From assembly GCA_022484595.1 (NCBI GenBank), contig JAKVLB010000006.1, forward strand, positions 1 through 64,000: DNA of 64,000 nucleotides, written 5' to 3'. A program made the position numbers and the translations under genes. The notes beneath the pieces were generated by a model that saw only the letters and a list, made by a program, of their open reading frames with translations, did no database searches and had not been told where the DNA came from. Position 1 is the first letter of the stretch; each line of letters begins with the position of its first letter. Below are positions 25,934 through 35,099 of this stretch, in pieces. This stretch comes from Mageeibacillus sp. (GTDB taxonomy: Bacteria; Bacillota; Clostridia; Saccharofermentanales; Saccharofermentanaceae).

Positions 25934-25962
25934 AATATACCACAAGTGCGCATGCTTTTTAA
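25934..25962 (-). promoter_or_regulatory. Candidate promoter of the surface-sugar operon
   Basis: The minus strand carries TTAAAA (25957-25962), a 17-bp spacer and TATATT (25934-25939), 33 bp before rfbF. The -35 matches four of six consensus bases and the -10 five of six. The element overlaps the end of the histidine kinase gene. Confidence 0.4.
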
Positions 25963-27326
25963 GACGGAAGTACCACAGTTATAATCAGCAGATTGCCCTC
26001 ACCGCAGCTCGCGCTTATCTTTCCTTTGTGCGTCTCGACAATAGTTTTCGCGATTGAAAGACCTATGCCGTAGCCTCCCGTGCCTGAATTTCTTGACTCA
26101 TCAGTTCTGTAGAACCGGTCGAAAAGGTGTTTGAGTTTATCCTTCGGTATCCTCTCCTGCGTCGTATTCTTGCAGTTCAGAACAATATTTCTGCCGTTTC
26201 TGGCAAGCTTAAGGTCTATTCTGCCGCCATCAGGCGTGTATTTGACCGCATTGTCCAGAAAAATTCCCACGAGCTGGCCTATCATTTTCGGGTCTCCCGT
26301 CATAGCCAGGCCCTGTTCTATATCGCAGTTAAACTTCTTGTTCTGCAGCTGCGCGGGCGCCTTATAGGACTCCGCCGTCTCCGCGATAACATCTGACACC
26401 GGAAATTCTACGGCTACCATCGATTTTCTGCCGCCCTCTTCGGTCTTGGCAAGCATAATGAGCTCAGACGTAAGTTCTGTCAGCCGCTGTGTCTGACGCC
26501 TTATATCTGCAAGCCACTCGTTGTCGCCGCTGCCGTCTGAATCGCCGCTTTCCAGTTCAAGCACGTCGGCATCCGCATTAATTATCGCGAGCGGAGTCTT
26601 GAGTTCATGACCCGCATCGGTGATAAAACGACGCTGTTTCTCATATGTCTCGGCAATCGGCCTGATCACTATTCCGGATGCCAATGTTATGAGCGCGAAA
26701 ACAGATACCAGACAGATCAGCGATATAATAACGCTTATCGCTATGAACGACCTCGCGTTATCAAGACTTCTTCCGCAATCGTAGAAAATAATCAATGTTC
26801 CGTCGGAGAGGTCTGTCACAAGATAGCGGTAATCATCGATGAACCCGGACTTCTTCCCGGATTCAACTACTTCACGGGCGTAATCTGCGGCCTGATCCGA
26901 GTCCACAGCGGAAATCCTTCCGGTGTCGATGCTTCTCGTGGTATTGTCTTCCGTCAGATTTACACTGAAATACCTCGTCTCGTAAGCGAGCTCACTGGAA
27001 TCATAAACGATATTGTCATTAAGATACATCAGCCAAGAATTCTTGCCTGATCCGCCTCCGCCGACGCCTTCACTGCCATTCGCGCTTCCGATGTCTCCGG
27101 AAGGAGCGGGCGACTTTGGGTCGTTCAAAGGCTGTGTTGATGCACCGCCCGCAGGTTTGTCGGGAAAAGTGCCGCCGTTATCAGACAGCATCTGCAGTAT
27201 GATATCCGCGCGTTTGACGACATGAAGGTATACAGAGCCGTTTATCGTACCGACAAGTGCCGCCATTACAAGAATGACGGAACACATCGTTATTATTATG
27301 AACTTGCGGCGGAGTTTTTTTATCAT
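25959..27326 (-). CDS. Two-component sensor histidine kinase
   Basis: The 455-residue membrane kinase has transmembrane helices at about 8-30 and 194-221. The outer domain between them contains a Gly/Ser/Pro-rich low-complexity loop (about 52-95). The phosphoacceptor is H240 in DAGHELKTPLA, followed by N-box FLDNAVKYT and G-boxes including GYGIGLSIAK. Its start overlaps the response-regulator stop by 4 bp. The signal sensed is unknown. Its neighbours and the shared operator described in the findings suggest it controls cell-surface genes. Confidence 0.94.
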   Translation of the reverse strand: MIKKLRRKFIIITMCSVILVMAALVGTINGSVYLHVVKRADIILQMLSDNGGTFPDKPAGGASTQPLNDPKSPAPSGDIGSANGSEGVGGGGSGKNSWLMYLNDNIVYDSSELAYETRYFSVNLTEDNTTRSIDTGRISAVDSDQAADYAREVVESGKKSGFIDDYRYLVTDLSDGTLIIFYDCGRSLDNARSFIAISVIISLICLVSVFALITLASGIVIRPIAETYEKQRRFITDAGHELKTPLAIINADADVLELESGDSDGSGDNEWLADIRRQTQRLTELTSELIMLAKTEEGGRKSMVAVEFPVSDVIAETAESYKAPAQLQNKKFNCDIEQGLAMTGDPKMIGQLVGIFLDNAVKYTPDGGRIDLKLARNGRNIVLNCKNTTQERIPKDKLKHLFDRFYRTDESRNSGTGGYGIGLSIAKTIVETHKGKISASCGEGNLLIITVVLPS

Positions 27327-27997
27327 TTTGTCTCCTCCAGCGAATATCCGGCGTTGCGGGTGGCCTTTATTATCACATGGGCATCGAGTGCGGCAAGCTT
27401 CTTGCGAAGATAGGACAGATAAGTCCAGACCACATTGATGTCGGCATCTGAATCAAGCCCCCATATTTTATCCATGAATCTGTCTGTCGAAATCAGTACT
27501 CCGGGATTGCTCATGAGAAGCTCTATCATCTGAAATTCCTTGCCGGCAAGTCTGAATTTGCCGGTTGGAGTCGACAGTTCGAACGAAGCCCTGTCCAAAG
27601 TAAGATTGGCAAATCTCAGTATGTTGTCACCCGAGGCAGCCGGCTGACGTGTTATGGCTCTCAGCCTTGCGAGCAGTTCTCTGCTCGAGAAAGGTTTGGT
27701 AAGATAATCGTTGGCCCCGGAGTCGAGACCGTCCACCTTATCATCTATCTCAGATTTTGCCGTAAGGAGCATTACAGGAGTGACATTGCCCTTTGCCCTT
27801 ATTTCCTTCAGTGCAGTGATCCCGTCCATCTTCGGCATCATGATGTCCATAATTATCGCATCATAGTCACCCGTTCTGACATAAGTCACTGCGGCTTCGC
27901 CGTCCCCTACGCAGTCTACGGAATAATTATTCCTGGTAAGTATTGTCGTAAGCGCGCGAGCCATCGACGACTCGTCTTCCGCCAAAAGTATTCTCAT
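27323..27997 (-). CDS. OmpR/PhoB-family response regulator
   Basis: The 224-residue protein has a receiver domain (acid pocket E8/D9, phosphoacceptor D51 in IIMDIMMPKMDG, LLTAK lysine) and a C-terminal winged helix (GKEFQMIELLMSN, then INVVWTYLSYLRKKL). Such regulators bind tandem direct repeats about 10-11 bp apart. Repeats of that kind lie in its own promoter, at the divergent VTC operon and before the lipoprotein gene at 33141, all with the same spacing to the -10 box. Confidence 0.95.
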   Translation of the reverse strand: MRILLAEDESSMARALTTILTRNNYSVDCVGDGEAAVTYVRTGDYDAIIMDIMMPKMDGITALKEIRAKGNVTPVMLLTAKSEIDDKVDGLDSGANDYLTKPFSSRELLARLRAITRQPAASGDNILRFANLTLDRASFELSTPTGKFRLAGKEFQMIELLMSNPGVLISTDRFMDKIWGLDSDADINVVWTYLSYLRKKLAALDAHVIIKATRNAGYSLEETK

Positions 27998-28046: not shown

Positions 28047-28078
28047 TTAATACACCTGAAGCCTTAAAAAAACTTAAA
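28047..28078 (-). promoter_or_regulatory. Direct-repeat operator and -10 of the two-component operon
   Basis: On the minus strand TTTAAG (28073-28078) and TTTAAG (28063-28068) form a direct repeat with a 10-bp period. They are followed by a 10-bp gap and TATTAA (28047-28052) as the -10. The repeats occupy the place of a -35 box, as at response-regulator-activated promoters. This predicts autoregulation. Confidence 0.6.
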
Positions 28079-28096
28079 ATTCCGGTTGCTCAGATA

Positions 28097-28129
28097 TTTA
28101 AGTTACGTTTTAGGTGCTGCCTGTAAGAT
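28097..28129 (+). promoter_or_regulatory. Direct-repeat operator and -10 of the VTC/DUF4956 operon
   Basis: TTTAAG (28097-28102) and TTTTAG (28108-28113) form a direct repeat with an 11-bp period. After a 10-bp gap comes TAAGAT (28124-28129), preceded by TG (28122-28123). The repeats replace a recognisable -35 box. Confidence 0.6.
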
Positions 28130-28161
28130 TTGTACATAAAGATACAAAGGAGGCGGTTCTC

Positions 28162-28878
28162 ATGTCATACCAGGATGTTTTCAAAAGATATGAACTCAAA
28201 TTTCTGCTTGATCACGATCAGAAGGAAAGACTCTTAACCGAAATTGAAGGCAGGATGACACCTGACTCTTACGGGCGTACCACTATACGCAACATATATT
28301 ACGATACTGATAACTATCGCATAATAAGAGCCTCACTGGCAAAACCTTTATATAAGGAAAAGCTGAGGATGAGAAGCTACAGGTGCGCAGGGCCTGATGA
28401 CACGGTTTTCGTTGAACTCAAGAAAAAATACGACGGTATCGTTTACAAACGCCGGGTGGCATTGCCACTGAACGAAGCCGGCAGTTGGCTCGAAGGAGCA
28501 TCGCACCCTGGGGCTTCAACACAGATAACCGATGAAGTGGATTACTTTCTGGATTTCTATACCGGACTTAAGCCAAAGGCATTTATAACTTATGAACGCG
28601 AGGCCTACCAGACGCTCGGCAGAAGCGACTTCAGAATTACACTGGACGAGAACATTTTATATCGCAGCGATTGCCTCAGTCTCGGCAGCAGAGCTTTCGG
28701 CCGGCCTCTTATCCCTGAAGACTCCACTCTTATGGAACTCAAGATACCGGAGTCCATGCCGGTCTGGATGGCGGATTTCCTTACAGAACAGGGCATATGC
28801 CGCGTGACCTACTCAAAATACGGAACAGCATACATGAACTATATATTCGAAAATGAAAGGAGCGTACTCTATGCTTGA
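28162..28878 (+). CDS. VTC-domain protein (polyphosphate polymerase-like)
   Basis: The start is set at 28162 because AAAGGAGG lies 8 bp upstream; an in-frame ATG at 28114 lies within the promoter region. The 238-residue protein matches the VTC tunnel domain. Basic and acidic motifs are intact: RYELKFLL, RNIYYDTD, KLRMRSYR, VFVELKKK, YKRRV, YEREAY, LMELKIP and SKYGTAY. In yeast, VTC4 makes polyphosphate from ATP; bacterial members are soluble, and their activity is mostly untested. It overlaps the DUF4956 gene by 8 bp. Confidence 0.9.
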   Translation: MSYQDVFKRYELKFLLDHDQKERLLTEIEGRMTPDSYGRTTIRNIYYDTDNYRIIRASLAKPLYKEKLRMRSYRCAGPDDTVFVELKKKYDGIVYKRRVALPLNEAGSWLEGASHPGASTQITDEVDYFLDFYTGLKPKAFITYEREAYQTLGRSDFRITLDENILYRSDCLSLGSRAFGRPLIPEDSTLMELKIPESMPVWMADFLTEQGICRVTYSKYGTAYMNYIFENERSVLYA

Positions 28879-29563
28879 TAATCTTTTTGATACTGTAATT
28901 AATTCCTCAACAGGTACCACACCTGCAATCTTCATCGCCCTTGTTCTCACATCACTCGTTCTGGGGCTTGCCCTTGCATTTGTCCATATGTACAAAGCAA
29001 CCTACTCCAAAAGCTTCATTATGACGCTCGCCATTCTTCCTGCGGTTGTCTGCGTTGTAATACTGATGGTAAACGGCAATATCGGTGCCGGAGTTGCTGT
29101 CGCCGGCACTTTCTCACTTGTGCGTTTCAGATCAGCTCCGGGAAGTGCCCGCGAAATAGTTGTACTTTTCGCCGCAGTGTGCGCCGGTCTCATAATGGGA
29201 ATGGGATACATAGCCTATGCTGTCCTCTTCACGCTGATAATAGGCCTGGCTATCATGATTCTCTCGGCCACATCCCTCGGAGAGCATGATTCAGGGTGCT
29301 CGAAATCCCTTCACATCACAATTCCCGAAGACCTGAACTACACCGATGCCTTTGATGACCTTTTCGCAGACTATACGTCATCACACAGGCTGGTTCTCGC
29401 AAAGACATCCAATATGGGATCAATGTTCCGTCTTCACTACGAGATTGTTCTCAAATCAGCAGACAAGGAGAAGGAGTTTATTGACAAGCTTCGCTGCCGC
29501 AACGGAAATCTGGAGATATCAATATCTGATTTGAGTTCCGTTCCGACTGTCGAACAGCTCTGA
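28871..29563 (+). CDS. DUF4956 integral membrane protein
   Basis: The start is placed at 28871, 8 bp inside the VTC gene, because GAAAGGAG lies at the right distance before it. The 230-residue product has three or four membrane helices in the first 140 residues with the family loop AGTFSLVRFRSAPGSAREI, and a soluble C-terminal domain. DUF4956 proteins are often encoded with VTC-domain proteins, which suggests a membrane complex; the function is not established. Confidence 0.9.
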   Translation: MLDNLFDTVINSSTGTTPAIFIALVLTSLVLGLALAFVHMYKATYSKSFIMTLAILPAVVCVVILMVNGNIGAGVAVAGTFSLVRFRSAPGSAREIVVLFAAVCAGLIMGMGYIAYAVLFTLIIGLAIMILSATSLGEHDSGCSKSLHITIPEDLNYTDAFDDLFADYTSSHRLVLAKTSNMGSMFRLHYEIVLKSADKEKEFIDKLRCRNGNLEISISDLSSVPTVEQL

Positions 29564-29576
29564 AAGGAGGCTTTCC

Positions 29577-31418
29577 ATGCATAATTTAAGACTTACCGCT
29601 GCGGTTGCCGCAATGCTCTTCGTTCTCGCATTGACAGGCTGCTCAGTATTTAATACCGGATCAGGACAATCTGATACAGATTCCGACAGTTCCGTATCGA
29701 ACCTGGAAGAGAGCCTGACAGCCGACGACGTGTTTACGAGTGAAGATTATGAGGTCGGATATGACGAATCCGACTCAGCCTCAGTCACACTGACCGGGGA
29801 TACCGCCCAGTCCGATTCATCTTCCGTAAGCATTGACGGCTCAGACATCACTATATCATCCGAAGGAACATACATAATTACGGGCACACTTACCGACGGA
29901 ACTCTGACGATAGATGCGGGTGATTCTGATGACGTAAGGTTAATTCTCAGCAACGCGTCGATAACTTCATCCGGATATGCGGCAATATACTGCAAGAATG
30001 CCGACAATGTCTACATCACGCTTGCGCAAGGCAGTACAAACACTCTGACCTCAGGCGGCACTTTCGTACAGACTGACGACAGCAATGTAGACGGTACGGT
30101 TTTCGCGAAAACAGATCTCGCAATCAACGGAAGCGGCTCGCTCGAAGTAACTTCTGAGTGCGGTCACGGAATAGTCTGCAAGGACAGCCTCGTAATTACC
30201 GGCGGCACCATAGACATAAGCGCTGCTTCCTGCGGCATACAGTCCAAAGACTCCGTCGCAGTGAGCGAGGCCTCCGTAAACATAACGTCAGGCAAGGACG
30301 GCATCCACTGCGAGAACAACGACGATGCGACCCTGGGCTATGTTTTTTTCGCTTCCGGAACCATTAAGATAACATCGGACGGCGACGGAATCAGTGCATC
30401 CTCATCAATACAGATCGATGACGGTACTTATAATATAACGGCGGGAGGCGGTTCAACCGGAAGCTTCGGATCAGTCACGACTTCCGAGACTGGCTGGGGG
30501 TTTAACGAAAGCAGCCGGACCGAGACCGAAACTTCTTCAAGCACAAAGGGAATCAAGGCCGCAACGGTTCTTTTAATAAGCGGCGGCACAGTAAACATAA
30601 GCTCTGAAGACGATTGTCTGCATGCTGCAAAAACACTTGGAATTGCCAATGCTGACATGACATTGTCTTCAGACGACGACGGAATTCACTCCGATTATGA
30701 CCTGATAATTGAATCCGGCACGATAAACATAACCTACTCCTACGAAGGTATTGAAGGTCAGAACATATCGATCAGCGGCGGCGATATAAAGGTCTGCTCA
30801 GATGATGACGGTATGAACGCGGCGTCAGCGGACGGTTCCGGCGATATGATGTCCGCGGACGGTGTCAGTACAATTGACATAAGCGGAGGAACCCTATACG
30901 TCAGGGCGTCCGGCGACGGACTCGATTCCAACGGTTCAATGACAATATCCGGCGGAACAATAACCGTAATGGGTCCTGAAAGCGGTGCGAACGGTTCGCT
31001 CGATGTTGCCGGAGATGCGGCAATAACAGGCGGCACTGTAGTAATGGCGGGAACCTCGGCCATGGCAACCAACTTCACTTCCGCACAGCAGGGTTCGATT
31101 CTCCTGTCGTTTGATTCACAGACATCAGGTTCTCTGATTACGGTGAAAGACTCATCAGGAAATGAACTCATCAGCGTAACGGCCGACTGTTCTTACTCGT
31201 CTGTCCTTATTTCTTCCCCCGATCTGACCACCGGCCAGACTTATACTGTAACGTGCGCGGACAATAAGACAGATGTCAGTCTGAGCGAAAACATATACGG
31301 TTCAGGAACAGGAATGGCAGGCGGAGCCGGTATGGGACCGGGCGCCGGGACAGATTCCGGTTCAGCGCCGGGTGCTGCTCCGGGAACAGACTCCGGTACC
31401 GGACGTCCTGGCCTGTGA
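29577..31418 (+). CDS. Beta-helix lipoprotein, DUF4353/Cthe_2159-like carbohydrate-binding family
   Basis: The 613-residue secreted protein has a lipobox (LTGC, lipidated Cys 22). A long series of parallel beta-helix turns follows, seen as repeated short units such as ISGGTLYVRASGDGLDSNG and ITSDGDGISASSSI, with DDGI/DGLDSNG loops typical of the Cthe_2159 family that binds polygalacturonate. The C-terminus is a Gly/Ala/Pro/Ser-rich tail. It is the third gene of the VTC operon, 13 bp after DUF4956. It probably displays on the cell surface; the ligand is inferred only from the family. Confidence 0.82.
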   Translation: MHNLRLTAAVAAMLFVLALTGCSVFNTGSGQSDTDSDSSVSNLEESLTADDVFTSEDYEVGYDESDSASVTLTGDTAQSDSSSVSIDGSDITISSEGTYIITGTLTDGTLTIDAGDSDDVRLILSNASITSSGYAAIYCKNADNVYITLAQGSTNTLTSGGTFVQTDDSNVDGTVFAKTDLAINGSGSLEVTSECGHGIVCKDSLVITGGTIDISAASCGIQSKDSVAVSEASVNITSGKDGIHCENNDDATLGYVFFASGTIKITSDGDGISASSSIQIDDGTYNITAGGGSTGSFGSVTTSETGWGFNESSRTETETSSSTKGIKAATVLLISGGTVNISSEDDCLHAAKTLGIANADMTLSSDDDGIHSDYDLIIESGTINITYSYEGIEGQNISISGGDIKVCSDDDGMNAASADGSGDMMSADGVSTIDISGGTLYVRASGDGLDSNGSMTISGGTITVMGPESGANGSLDVAGDAAITGGTVVMAGTSAMATNFTSAQQGSILLSFDSQTSGSLITVKDSSGNELISVTADCSYSSVLISSPDLTTGQTYTVTCADNKTDVSLSENIYGSGTGMAGGAGMGPGAGTDSGSAPGAAPGTDSGTGRPGL

Positions 31419-31751
31419 TGACAGATCTCTCATTCTCTGTTTATCTGATATGTCCAGATTATCGGGAACGCCTTCAGAGAAATCTTCACGTAATGGTAAA
31501 CAGACCTGTTCTGTTCTTTGTAAATAAGTATCATATCGGGTTATTTTGTCATTAAAATATTATATTTTGGTTTAAATTATCAAATAGAATGTATTGCTTT
31601 GAATGAAAATAATCTATATACTTGCCTTTAGTTAATCAATTTGACATTTTTCTATTCCTATTATCCCCATATTTGCGGTCACCCTCCCCAGGGTGGCCGC
31701 TACTTATTTCCGAAGATAATTTACAGGGTAAGACTGCAGACAAAAATCGTC
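31419..31751. other. Gene-free, AT-rich stretch between convergent genes
   Basis: No convincing coding region is seen. The stretch holds an AT-rich core (about 31540-31660), a weak promoter-like pair (TTGCTT 31594-31599, 17 bp, TATACT 31617-31622, plus strand) and the strong GC hairpin listed separately. Confidence 0.6.
31675..31700 (+). terminator. GC-rich hairpin, likely transcript end
   Basis: GCGGTCACCCT and AGGGTGGCCGC form an 11-bp stem with a four-base CCCC loop. It pairs fully only in plus-strand RNA, where the one mismatch becomes a G-U pair. A modest U-containing tract follows. It could end the VTC operon transcript. Confidence 0.5.
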
Positions 31752-32930
31752 TCAGTCTTCATCTTTCCTTTTGAATAATTTGAACCGCCCCGGTCTGTCC
31801 GGCGTGCCGCTTTCTGTTTTCCCTTCTGCCTTTGGAACTGTCTTGTCCGACAGCATCTCGCCCCAGTTGGCAAAGAACATTCTTCCGAGAGTCTTTATTT
31901 TGTTTGATGATTCGGCGCTCATCTGATTCATTCTGGATAACATGAGCCGCGCACCCTTAATGCCGGTCTTGCTGAGCAGGCTCAGATAAATACAGCCCGA
32001 AGCTTCAAAAATCGCGAACAGATCATCAATAAAGAATTTGCGGTCCGCAAGCTCCATTCCATCTATCCATCCCGTCATGGTGGCATCGAACAGATCGCTG
32101 AGGCTGTTGCATCTGTCGCATGTCTCGAATTTCCTGCCAGTGAGCTGCCACGACACCGGGTTATGCTGCATGATTCCTGTCTCTGAGCTCTTTACTATAA
32201 CAGGATTGATATCATTGATAAGCAGTCTTCCTATAATAGAACCTTCGGGGATAATCCTGTCGACTCTCGACTTGAGCGATGTGAACTGTTCCGACTCATA
32301 TGTGTCACGGTTGAATCCCGGACCGTCGTTGTCATATATACGTACAATTCTCGACGCAATTTCAGATGACACTCCGCTTGCCGCGTAAATAGCCAGATGC
32401 CCGCCCTTGGAGTGGCCGCCAAGACGGATATTCTCAAGATGAACACTGCAGACTTCTTCAAGGTAGTCAATGGCCTCGCCCTCCGAAGGGACCGTCCTGT
32501 AGCTTAGGTTGAAATCCTCTTTCCATCCGACGATTGTATCGTCCGTTCCCCGAAACGATACAAAAGGCACTCCGTCATCCGTGATTATCTCCACTGCCGC
32601 AAACTGAGTCTCCGTCGATATATCAACCTTGTTCACATAATTGCGCAGCCGCGCATCACCGAATCTTTCAGTACCGGCCATTCTGCGCAGAAGTTCCGGT
32701 GCAAAATTAATAAATGACTTGTCTTCGTCCAGTTCTTCTTTGCTGTGCATCTCGAAAAATCTCTCTGCGCACTCCTGAAGGCTCACGCTGCCTCCGCCTA
32801 TCCCCGGAACTATTCCGTCCAGATTAACATAAGACACACACGACAGAATCAACGCGTCAATGTCGTTGAATTTGTCTTTGGCGAAAGTAATGTCGCCGCG
32901 CCAGTTCATGTAATCAAGAATATTGCTCAT
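31752..32930 (-). CDS. DUF2974 alpha/beta-hydrolase (Mbeg1-like lipase family)
   Basis: The 392-residue protein carries the nucleophile elbow GHSKGG with S174, after VSFRGTDDTIVGWKEDF, the usual oxyanion region of this lipase-like family. No signal peptide is seen, so it is probably cytoplasmic. The C-terminus is basic. A TATAAT lies at 32942-32947, only about 12 bp before the start ATG, and there is no ribosome-binding sequence at the usual distance, so the mRNA may be nearly leaderless. Substrate is unknown. Confidence 0.82.
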   Translation of the reverse strand: MSNILDYMNWRGDITFAKDKFNDIDALILSCVSYVNLDGIVPGIGGGSVSLQECAERFFEMHSKEELDEDKSFINFAPELLRRMAGTERFGDARLRNYVNKVDISTETQFAAVEIITDDGVPFVSFRGTDDTIVGWKEDFNLSYRTVPSEGEAIDYLEEVCSVHLENIRLGGHSKGGHLAIYAASGVSSEIASRIVRIYDNDGPGFNRDTYESEQFTSLKSRVDRIIPEGSIIGRLLINDINPVIVKSSETGIMQHNPVSWQLTGRKFETCDRCNSLSDLFDATMTGWIDGMELADRKFFIDDLFAIFEASGCIYLSLLSKTGIKGARLMLSRMNQMSAESSNKIKTLGRMFFANWGEMLSDKTVPKAEGKTESGTPDRPGRFKLFKRKDED

Positions 32931-33063
32931 AGTTATATTTTATTATAAATGCTCTCCATATGGCAGTACCTGCGGCAAAAAAACGTTCTTTCTGCTGTTG
33001 AGAAAACACAAGTGCGAAGAAACATCACCATTCATGATAATTGTTCACGATTCATACCAGACA

Positions 33064-33096
33064 TTTAAGGTTAGTTTAAAGAGCCGCATTCATAAT
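33064..33096 (+). promoter_or_regulatory. Direct-repeat operator and -10 of the 33141 lipoprotein gene
   Basis: TTTAAG (33064-33069) and TTTAAA (33075-33080) form a direct repeat with an 11-bp period. After exactly 10 bp comes CATAAT (33091-33096). The layout is the same as before the VTC operon and the two-component operon. Confidence 0.62.
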
Positions 33097-33140
33097 GATT
33101 AAGACAATATCAATGCAACAGTCTGAAAGGAGATAACATA

Positions 33141-35099
33141 ATGAAAAATAAAAGATTGGCAGCTTTGGCGACGGCGATGGCAATGGTCACCGCCGTTGCA
33201 TCCGGTTGCAGCAAAACTTCCGGAAGCACTTCAGAAAGCGATGATTACAGCGGTCAGACAATAACCGGCGAGGTAACCGTGATAGACGGTGATGATATTA
33301 CTATCGCTCTTGGAGAGATTAAAGAAGCCGAAGACTCCTCCTCGGAATCTGAAGACGATAATTCAGGTGAATCTGAACCGACAGAAGCTACAGATACTTC
33401 AGATAATTCGAATGACAGCAGATCAATGCCTTCCGGGCAGTCTCAGGGTGACGGCGAGGCTCCTTCGGGGCAGGCTCCGGGTGACGGTGAGATGCCATCC
33501 GGGCAGGCTCCCGGTGACGGCGAGATGCCTTCCGGGCAGGCTCCCGGTGACGGCGAGATGCCTTCCGGGCAGGCTCCCGGTGACGGCGAGATGCCTTCCG
33601 GACAGGCTCCCGGGGGAAACATGCCCGGAGACAGCAGCGCGATTGTACAGTATGAGTTTGAAGAGAACGGCGATACAGCAACTATAGATGTTTCATCAGT
33701 CACAACAATTACAGTTGAGAATGACACTGATGACGAAGACGATACCGTTGATGAGATTCAGGTTGGCGATATCCTTGAAATTACTTTTGACGAAGAAGGC
33801 TCGGTAAGCTCCATAACAGTGAAATCACTTACAGAATCTTCCTCGGCCGATATGATGCCGAATGGAGACTTCACCGCGAATGCGGCATCCGGCGGTTCGT
33901 CATCCGCTTCCGTTGACGCAAAAGGCGCCACCACCATAACCGAAGATTCAGACATAGAATCAGAGAGTTACTCCTCGACAGGCGATGATGAGAACGCATT
34001 GCTGATTGACGGTGCGACAGTAAGCCTGTCCGGCATAACCGCAGATAAAAGCGGCGGAGAATCATCCAGCAGCGAGAACGGAGATTTCTACGGAATCAAT
34101 GCCGCTGTTCTCGCAACTAACGGTGCAACGGTAACAATCGACGACGCGACAGTCACTTCCGATGCAGCCAACGGCAACGGTATATTCAGCTATGGCGACG
34201 GAACTACAGTAAATATATCTGACTCAAGCATAACGACTGTCTCCGATAACTCCGGCGGAATTATGACGACAGGCGGCGGGACAACAAACGCAACAAATCT
34301 TACTGTTGATACATCCGGCAACTCTTCTGCAGCCATAAGATCTGACCGCGGCGGCGGAACGGTAAAAGTCTCAGGCGGTACATATTCAACACACGGAACA
34401 GGTTCTCCGGCAATATATTCAACAGCAGACATAACGGCAGACAGCGCGACACTGACAGCGACAAAGTCGGAAGCTCTGGTAATTGAGGGCTGCAATTCCA
34501 TTGCGCTCACAGACTGCAATGTTACTTCCACAGAGACAGAGACTGCAAGCTCCGACGGCAATTTCAAGTCTGTAATGATTTACCAGTCTCAATCCGGAGA
34601 TGCTGATACGGGAGAGTCCTCTTTTTCGATGACGGGAGGAAGCCTGACCTGCAACAGCGGAGATACAATCTATGTGACCAACACGGCGTGCTCGATTTAT
34701 ATGAACGGCGTTGATATCACCAACAACGACACTGACGGAGTATTCCTGAGAATAATCGGCAACGGAGGGACAAAAGGCTGGGGCACCGCAGGCTCGAACG
34801 GAGGCACCGCCGATGTTGTACTTGAAGACCAGCAGGTTGAAGGCGACATAGCAGTTGATACCATCTCGCAGATGAATCTGACTCTCAAGGGTGCTTCAAC
34901 ACTTACCGGAACGATAAATATCGCGGACAACGCCGATGGCGGCACTGCTGTTGATGACAATGCCGTTGTTACCATAGACAAAGGCTCCACCTGGGAGTTA
35001 ACCGGCAATTGCACCGTGACATCACTCACGAACAACGGCACAATCATTTTTAACGGCTACACGATAACGCTTGCTGACGGTACCGTATTAAGCAAATAA
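33141..35099 (+). CDS. Repeat-containing beta-helix surface lipoprotein
   Basis: The 652-residue product starts with a signal peptide and a lipobox-like ASGC (Cys 23). A small domain resembling DUF5666 (residues about 32-60) follows. Next are an acidic Ser/Glu/Asp linker and a tandem repeat of 11 residues (GQAPGDGEMPS, residues about 99-160). The rest is a long Ser/Thr/Asn/Gly-rich parallel beta-helix with short repeats (NGATVTIDDATVTSDAANG, GGTVKVSGGTYS). An AAAGGAG ribosome site lies 8 bp before the ATG. The function is unknown; a surface-binding role is inferred. Confidence 0.82.
   Translation: MKNKRLAALATAMAMVTAVASGCSKTSGSTSESDDYSGQTITGEVTVIDGDDITIALGEIKEAEDSSSESEDDNSGESEPTEATDTSDNSNDSRSMPSGQSQGDGEAPSGQAPGDGEMPSGQAPGDGEMPSGQAPGDGEMPSGQAPGDGEMPSGQAPGGNMPGDSSAIVQYEFEENGDTATIDVSSVTTITVENDTDDEDDTVDEIQVGDILEITFDEEGSVSSITVKSLTESSSADMMPNGDFTANAASGGSSSASVDAKGATTITEDSDIESESYSSTGDDENALLIDGATVSLSGITADKSGGESSSSENGDFYGINAAVLATNGATVTIDDATVTSDAANGNGIFSYGDGTTVNISDSSITTVSDNSGGIMTTGGGTTNATNLTVDTSGNSSAAIRSDRGGGTVKVSGGTYSTHGTGSPAIYSTADITADSATLTATKSEALVIEGCNSIALTDCNVTSTETETASSDGNFKSVMIYQSQSGDADTGESSFSMTGGSLTCNSGDTIYVTNTACSIYMNGVDITNNDTDGVFLRIIGNGGTKGWGTAGSNGGTADVVLEDQQVEGDIAVDTISQMNLTLKGASTLTGTINIADNADGGTAVDDNAVVTIDKGSTWELTGNCTVTSLTNNGTIIFNGYTITLADGTVLSK
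33435..33620 (+). repeat. 33-bp in-frame tandem repeat
   Basis: Units start at 33435, 33468, 33501, 33534 and 33567, with a partial sixth at 33600. Each encodes GQAPGDGEMPS or a close variant; the first is divergent (GQSQGDGEAPS). Units three to five are nearly identical in DNA, which points to recent expansion. The length can be expected to vary between strains. Confidence 0.92.

Follow-up and report, generated by a model that had tools for sequence, protein, structure and literature searches.

Introduction

In streptococci, promoters of the CiaRH two-component system carry a direct repeat followed by a -10 hexamer at a fixed distance, and TTTAAG-N5-TTTAAG with a -10 ten base pairs (bp) further on is the search pattern that found the CiaR-dependent small RNAs (csRNAs) (PMC3091779). 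At the csRNA promoters a C precedes the transcription start, which lies 7 nucleotides (nt) past the -10, and the CiaR recognition helix, VVEVYVSKVRKKL, shows only V/I changes among streptococci (PMC3091779). A 2021 inventory places CiaRH in no genus other than Streptococcus (PMC8186281). A CiaR-like regulator outside that genus is nonetheless already known from Bacillus anthracis, in which BAS0540 binds NTTAAG-N5-TTTAAG sites in electrophoretic mobility shift assays, with its own gene/promoter and the gene of a resistance-nodulation-division-type membrane fusion protein (MFP) among the targets (PMC4938410). Here we analyze a 64,000-nt stretch of the genome of a Mageeibacillus sp. (GenBank assembly GCA_022484595.1, contig JAKVLB010000006.1, positions 1 to 64,000; hereafter, the window), in which the promoters of a two-component operon, of an operon encoding VTC-domain and DUF4956 proteins and of a lipoprotein gene all carry a repeat of this type, and we propose that the three very probably belong to a single CiaR-like regulon.

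The window shares with CiaRH an OmpR-type regulator, an adjacent kinase and a candidate site at the regulator's own promoter. The likeness to the streptococcal system extends to the site itself, the 10 bp to the -10 and a start predicted 7 nt later, as well as to an effect on the system's own expression, small RNAs (sRNAs) at the strongest promoters and envelope-related targets, each described for CiaRH (PMC3091779, PMC8317062, PMC8186281) and each with a candidate counterpart here. The helix, however, is VVWTYLSYLRKKL, which matches VVEVYVSKVRKKL at 8 of 13 positions and thus departs from it by more than V/I changes; the predicted targets are a VTC-DUF4956-Cthe_2159 operon, beta-helix lipoproteins and a MacAB-type exporter; GTT follows each half-site; and the host belongs to the Clostridia, not to Streptococcus. 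BAS0540-BAS0541 is similar in that it is a CiaR homologue outside the streptococci with TTTAAG-type sites and an MFP target, but it is described as the closest CiaRH homologue of its own species, and the available text of that report mentions neither a VTC operon nor an sRNA (PMC4938410). As far as our searches of the open-licence literature show, a CiaR-type regulon in Clostridia that has VTC-DUF4956 as its core target and an sRNA arm is new.

PhoB, a member of the OmpR/PhoB family, has an activator geometry that overlaps the -35, and an earlier note on this DNA had likened the geometry of the three promoters to PhoB-type activation. That description holds insofar as the proposed regulon is of the OmpR/PhoB type. 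What the sites match in detail is the CiaR site, and the regulon appears larger than the note had claimed. The window site presumably differs from the Pho box, and we rejected the regulator as the PhoB equivalog because its score of 158.5 bits falls below the TIGR02154 cut-off of 296.2.

Three promoters with one direct repeat

The pattern TTTAAGN{4,5}TTTWAR has exactly three matches across the window, compared with a mean of 0.12 in shuffled sequence, and none of 100 shuffles reaches three (Table 1; positions are those of the window unless preceded by C1, C2, C8 or C11, which are contigs of the same 1.92-Mb genome). All three repeats that the earlier note had reported are therefore present, and reading of the sequence by eye bears out its further claims that a -10-like hexamer stands exactly 10 bp past each repeat and that a proper -35 is missing: TTGACA is absent from the -35 place (17-bp spacer) of the three sites, and parts of the repeats (AAGTTT, AGTTAC and AGGTTA) occupy it instead. 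Relative to TTTAAG-N5-TTTAAG, the two window sites with N5 spacing have one mismatch each and the N4 site has none. Since C-A is preferred 6–7 nt past the -10 in related promoters, transcription of the VTC operon is predicted to start near 28136; the start predicted for the lipoprotein gene lies near 33103.

A matrix derived from 45 VTC promoters of other species, with none from this genome, scores 33064 at 23.2 bits and 28097 at 23.1 bits, followed by the regulator site in two registers (28079/28078, 18.1 and 17.0 bits), which ranks third in the window; the next position, which is not one of the sites, reaches 14.0 bits. In 30 Markov windows the maxima under the same matrix averaged 11.3 bits, the highest being 21.8. 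Among the other genomic candidates, C11 scored 32.4 bits, C1:247658 23.0 and C1:142290 18.8. Two more were judged to be chance occurrences: C2:57599, which lies near a DUF885 gene, at 10.5 bits and C8:21541 at 7.6 bits.

Conservation across Clostridia

For the VTC promoters, we took the best 80 loci from a scan of named genomes for DUF4956, of which four were dropped because they lacked a correctly oriented VTC gene with 200 bp of preceding sequence; this left 76 usable VTC upstream regions. At a promoter score of at least 14, a promoter was found ahead of VTC in 48 of these 76 clostridial loci, compared with 10 on the opposite strand, none in the reversed control and a mean of 0.8 (maximum, 3) in shuffles, and 39 of the 48 sites lie at -53 to -93 relative to the start codon. 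In the columns that had not been used in selection, 42 VTC sites show a GTT after each half-site, giving an 11-bp period, and a preference for C-A near the predicted start; TTGACA is absent from them.

We also searched 188 genomes of the order for the exact full promoter, which yielded 32 sites in 29 genomes against six in the reversed control. Thirty of the sites were read (two had no locus), and these include near-duplicates from close relatives. VTC-type genes lie downstream at 12 of the 30, nine of them close and three at 24–28%, and DUF4956 adjoins VTC at all 12 except L227, where the contig ends. Relatives of the beta-helix proteins of the window follow at three sites (L216, L226 and L225), a regulator gene at one and sRNA-like units, defined by a terminator and no gene, at eight. 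Other lipoprotein-like genes account for two (L217, and L228, which is cut off by a contig end), and the remaining four comprise two near-identical loci with an ABC ATPase gene, an open frame of 484 codons and a DnaJ-like gene. The earlier note had held that its proposal would fail if the pattern were frequent at unrelated promoters. For the full geometry this is not so, as 24 of the 30 sites precede a VTC gene, a regulator gene, a beta-helix relative or an sRNA-like unit. A class-wide search of 391 genomes with the GTT-extended box matched eight genomes, with none in the reversed control; two of the eight matches were already known, four are new sites ahead of VTC with DUF4956 and two head sRNA-like units. 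This comparative conservation supports the regulon that the note had predicted, in which the sensor pair is joined by the VTC/DUF4956 operon and two beta-helix surface proteins.

The regulator and its recognition helix

Among 70 distinct relatives of the regulator with at least 55% identity (those whose translations share the same first 200 residues being counted once), 35 have a site directed toward the regulator gene and 32 have a divergent site, compared with none of 70 in the reversed control. When letter 4 of the half-sites is masked, a site in either direction is present at 51 of the 70, again with none reversed.

Letter 4 shifts with the recognition helix. All 69 sites of the VW(V/T)(Y/N/F)xS class have A or T at this letter of the first half-site, the second half-site having C in four and G in one, whereas in the VVWTHIGFVRKK class it is C in both half-sites of all seven. 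It is likewise C in both half-sites of the two sites that go with the helix NNVEVYMSFTR, and A in the four that go with NHVEVYISFLR. Such covariation links the box to this regulator family, but since the helix classes are also clades, it is suggestive rather than independent proof.

Regulator clades with other helices (L069–L072 and L075; L113, L115 and L128) show the same arrangement with half-sites that read TTTCAG or TTTCAA. Upstream of the regulator genes in L048, L049, L050 and L052, two boxes face each other across a near-palindromic -10, for example CCCTAAGATTAGGG in L049, unlike the boxes of the window, which stand back to back.

Small RNA-like units

A perfect box at C11:9266-9282 is followed 10 bp on by TAGAAT, about 79 gene-less nt and a strong terminator with an 11-bp stem. 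Box and unit together (C11:9176-9282; positions 1410-1517 of L005, minus strand) lie upstream of a desulfoferrodoxin gene, and the unit carries three UUCCC motifs. A 95-nt stretch there folds better than all of 200 shuffles (z, -5.6). Together with nine units from other genomes, two of which belong to another family, it makes up a set of ten sRNA-like units of 65–102 nt, all ending in a terminator, in which the longest open reading frame has 22 codons. A terminator falls within 140 nt of the -10 at all eight sRNA-like loci and at one of the 22 other exact loci.

Like these units, the csRNAs consist of an intergenic CiaR-type promoter and then a terminator, and many have two stem-loops with a linker that contains CAU (PMC3091779, PMC8186281). 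A further trait of csRNAs is an unpaired stretch that can pair with a Shine-Dalgarno sequence and AUG. CAU is present in the linker of all ten predicted RNAs. The predicted folds contain an additional hairpin in nine of the ten, which in the RNA of this genome occupies part of the linker. CAU joined to a four-letter anti-Shine-Dalgarno (anti-SD) match is found in five of the ten linkers, which come from a single sister genus and include three that are alike; a count of five was attained in 6 of 500 shuffles. A wider, C-rich definition of the CAU + anti-SD block raises this to six (none of 500 shuffles). The units differ from the csRNAs in that Rfam assigns no family at gathering score to the ten loci, and in that the linker in this genome has UUCCC motifs and no scored CAU + anti-SD block under either definition. 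An RsaE/RoxS identity for the C11 RNA is not claimed; the match has 25.1 bits (E, 0.31), whereas the gathering score is 79. The units of L233, L235 and L236 share CAUAAUAACCUC, which is complementary to GAGGU-UAUU-AUG, a Shine-Dalgarno sequence and start site.

Other members of the candidate regulon

The lipoprotein had 12 matches outside this genome, of which L205 was unscored and L202 and L204 were without a usable start. Seven of the nine scored have a site of at least 14 bits, at -64 to -81 from the ATG; L194 (10.9 bits) and L203 (4.2 bits) fall below the cut-off.

As judged from its sites, the candidate regulon is larger than the window, since it takes in a MacAB-type exporter and the sRNA-like units, and perhaps also a cell-wall hydrolase. 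The exporter site (C1:247658-247690, L009) stands ahead of a gene for an HlyD-type MFP, which is followed by ABC ATPase and MacB/FtsX-type permease genes. Outside this genome, all three scanned relatives at 45–52% (L207–L209) have a site and a match at 31% (L213) was scanned and has none; the scan did not extend to L210, L211 and L212. At C1:142290-142322 (L007), TTTTAG-N5-TTTTAG followed after 10 bp by TATAAT lies ahead of a weakly matched cell-wall hydrolase gene, at the 18.8 bits given above.

Proposed mechanism and alternatives

We consider it highly probable that a single CiaR-like regulator (27323-27997) has all three sites as its operators; it would activate its own operon together with the surface operon, the lipoprotein gene, the exporter and the sRNA. 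The adjacent kinase (25959-27326) would phosphorylate the regulator, and the phosphorylated dimer would bind head to tail to two 11-bp half-sites, with the extended consensus TTTAAGGTTnn, at the -35 position. Once bound, the regulator may bring RNA polymerase to the -10 that lies exactly 10 bp further on, as both the geometry and the example of CiaR suggest. It would thereby switch on its own operon, the VTC-DUF4956-Cthe_2159 operon and the 33141 lipoprotein gene, and also the MacAB-type exporter (C1:247658) and the ~79-nt csRNA-like RNA (C11:9250-9282). The sRNA, if expressed, may act on translation starts.

Several observations weigh against this reading. The bare repeat has five matches in the 1.92-Mb genome, three of which, the window sites, cluster within 5 kb, against nine in the reversed control, so that counting it is uninformative here. 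When up to three mismatches are allowed, the full promoter gives seven matches against four. Counts from one genome thus prove little beyond the clustering, and it is geometry, location and conservation that carry the case. On the refuting condition set in the earlier note, the outcome favours the proposal for the full geometry across the order but not for the bare repeat, given its lack of enrichment here. Of the three sites, that of the regulator itself is the weakest, with N4 spacing and a TATTAA that lacks the usual final T; in six loci of related regulators (L056, L058, L061, L062, L064 and L067) the divergent site alone scores; and 28 of the 76 VTC loci are without a scored site. Many of the loci counted are related, and the counts are therefore not independent. 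The sRNA core also occurs in the genome G006 upstream of the same desulfoferrodoxin gene with the box absent, which counts against fixed control. It is missing from the other 28 of the 30 upstream regions that were read out of desulfoferrodoxin matches in 46 genomes; with two of 30, this genome's included, we rejected a general desulfoferrodoxin-linked sRNA.

It is also conceivable, although unlikely, that the sites are operators of another OmpR-type regulator, such as the 47% paralogue at C1:253168, and that the neighbouring regulator is linked to them by position only. The genome encodes nine OmpR-type DNA-binding domains, one of the others of which could use these sites as well, and the exporter site lies about 5.5 kb from that paralogue. 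The paralogue, however, has a different helix and no such site among those listed upstream, and a 72% relative of the window regulator lies next to the exporter gene in G008, in divergent orientation. That letter 4 of the half-site tracks the helix of the adjacent regulator also argues for the neighbour. When 14 box-bearing genomes were searched at a strict cut-off (E ≤1e-55), a regulator relative at 64–72% was found in all eight tested same-family genomes with an sRNA-like unit (seven boxed, and G006 unboxed), one at 47–48% with its own TTTAAG sites in the two distant sRNA genomes, and one at 46–48% in G260. Three genomes with an exact box ahead of VTC, G210, G240 and G450, gave no regulator match at this cut-off, which weighs against the main reading. 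In G450 a regulator fragment that the contig end truncates (54% across 154 residues) adjoins the box; in G210 and G240 there is no regulator fragment near the box within the 3 kb read, and these two speak for another regulator.

That the regulator represses at the repeats instead of activating seems very unlikely. CiaR controls manLMN negatively (PMC8317062) and represses satAB in S. suis (PMC9241815), and a site covering the -35 could block polymerase. Neither the three sites nor the consensus, however, offers polymerase a -35, and a -10 placed 10 bp from the repeat is what the search for CiaR-activated csRNA promoters relied on (PMC3091779); the geometry and the precedent of CiaR thus point to activation. 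Chance, by which AT-rich promoter DNA would yield TTTAAG-like repeats near -10s, has next to no likelihood, for although the bare repeat does not exceed its reversed control in this genome and the top Markov window reached 21.8 bits, reversed and shuffled sequence yields almost no sites in the comparisons between genomes, 39 of the 48 VTC sites fall between -53 and -93 from the start codon, the independent matrix ranks the window sites first to third and conservation ahead of VTC, regulator and lipoprotein genes speaks against it.

Beyond regulation by the CiaR-like regulator in this genome, we lean toward the view that a CiaR-type system with csRNA-like output is widespread in Clostridia rather than confined to streptococci, and that it has diversified there into several helix/half-site classes (TTTAAG, TTTCAG and TTTCAA), has the VTC-DUF4956-beta-helix operon as its core target and has repeatedly brought unrelated sRNAs under the box. 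If so, gut and rumen Clostridia would use this promoter logic too, sRNA arm included, and VTC-DUF4956 genes would gain a regulator and hence a handle on the signals that induce them. The helix/half-site pairs form a natural series for working out DNA recognition in the OmpR family.

Genes around the sites

Table 1. Candidate promoter elements and associated genes in the 64,000-nt window
Feature	Position	Strand	Evidence
Sensor histidine kinase	25959..27326	-	PF00512, PF02518
Response regulator, OmpR/PhoB family, recognition helix VVWTYLSYLRKKL	27323..27997	-	PF00072 115.8 bits, PF00486 61.2 bits
-10-like TATTAA (weak), 10 bp past regulator repeat	28047..28052	-	sequence
Direct repeat TTTAAG-N4-TTTAAG, candidate response regulator operon promoter	28063..28078	-	pattern match; 18.1 bits with independent matrix
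Direct repeat TTTAAG-N5-TTTTAG, candidate VTC operon promoter	28097..28113	+	pattern match; 23.1 bits
-10-like TAAGAT, 10 bp past VTC repeat	28124..28129	+	sequence
VTC-domain protein (polyphosphate polymerase-like)	28162..28878	+	PF09359 127.5 bits
DUF4956 protein (probable membrane protein)	28871..29563	+	PF16316 55.3 bits
Cthe_2159-type carbohydrate-binding surface protein	29577..31418	+	PF14262 311.2 bits
Direct repeat TTTAAG-N5-TTTAAA, candidate lipoprotein gene promoter	33064..33080	+	pattern match; 23.2 bits
-10-like CATAAT, 10 bp past lipoprotein repeat	33091..33096	+	sequence
Lipoprotein, putative C-terminal beta-helix domain (about residues 262-652)	33141..35099	+	lipobox VASGC; AlphaFold2, Foldseek

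Further genes in the window encode an Mbeg1-like protein (minus strand) and an AraC-type regulator. Elsewhere, DUF4956 genes have been described beside pel exopolysaccharide operons, together with CotH and a polyphosphate polymerase (PMC7112168).

A Pfam scan of the lipoprotein encoded at 33141 gave no match. In its AlphaFold2 model (mean predicted local distance difference test score [pLDDT], 65.3; predicted template modelling score, 0.59), about the first 260 residues are disordered and the rest is chiefly strands. Of the 40 blocks of ten residues that begin at residue 261, 30 reach a pLDDT of at least 84. The Foldseek matches listed from the PDB are mostly beta-helix proteins; a single one has E ≤0.001, and the template modelling scores are low. 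The model and these matches make it reasonable to regard the lipoprotein as a surface beta-helix protein, and so to speak, as the earlier note had done, of two such proteins, but structure matches as weak as these fall short of proof. Near-identical repeats encoding PSGQAPGDGEM lie at 33440-33620, in the low-confidence N-terminal part of the lipoprotein.

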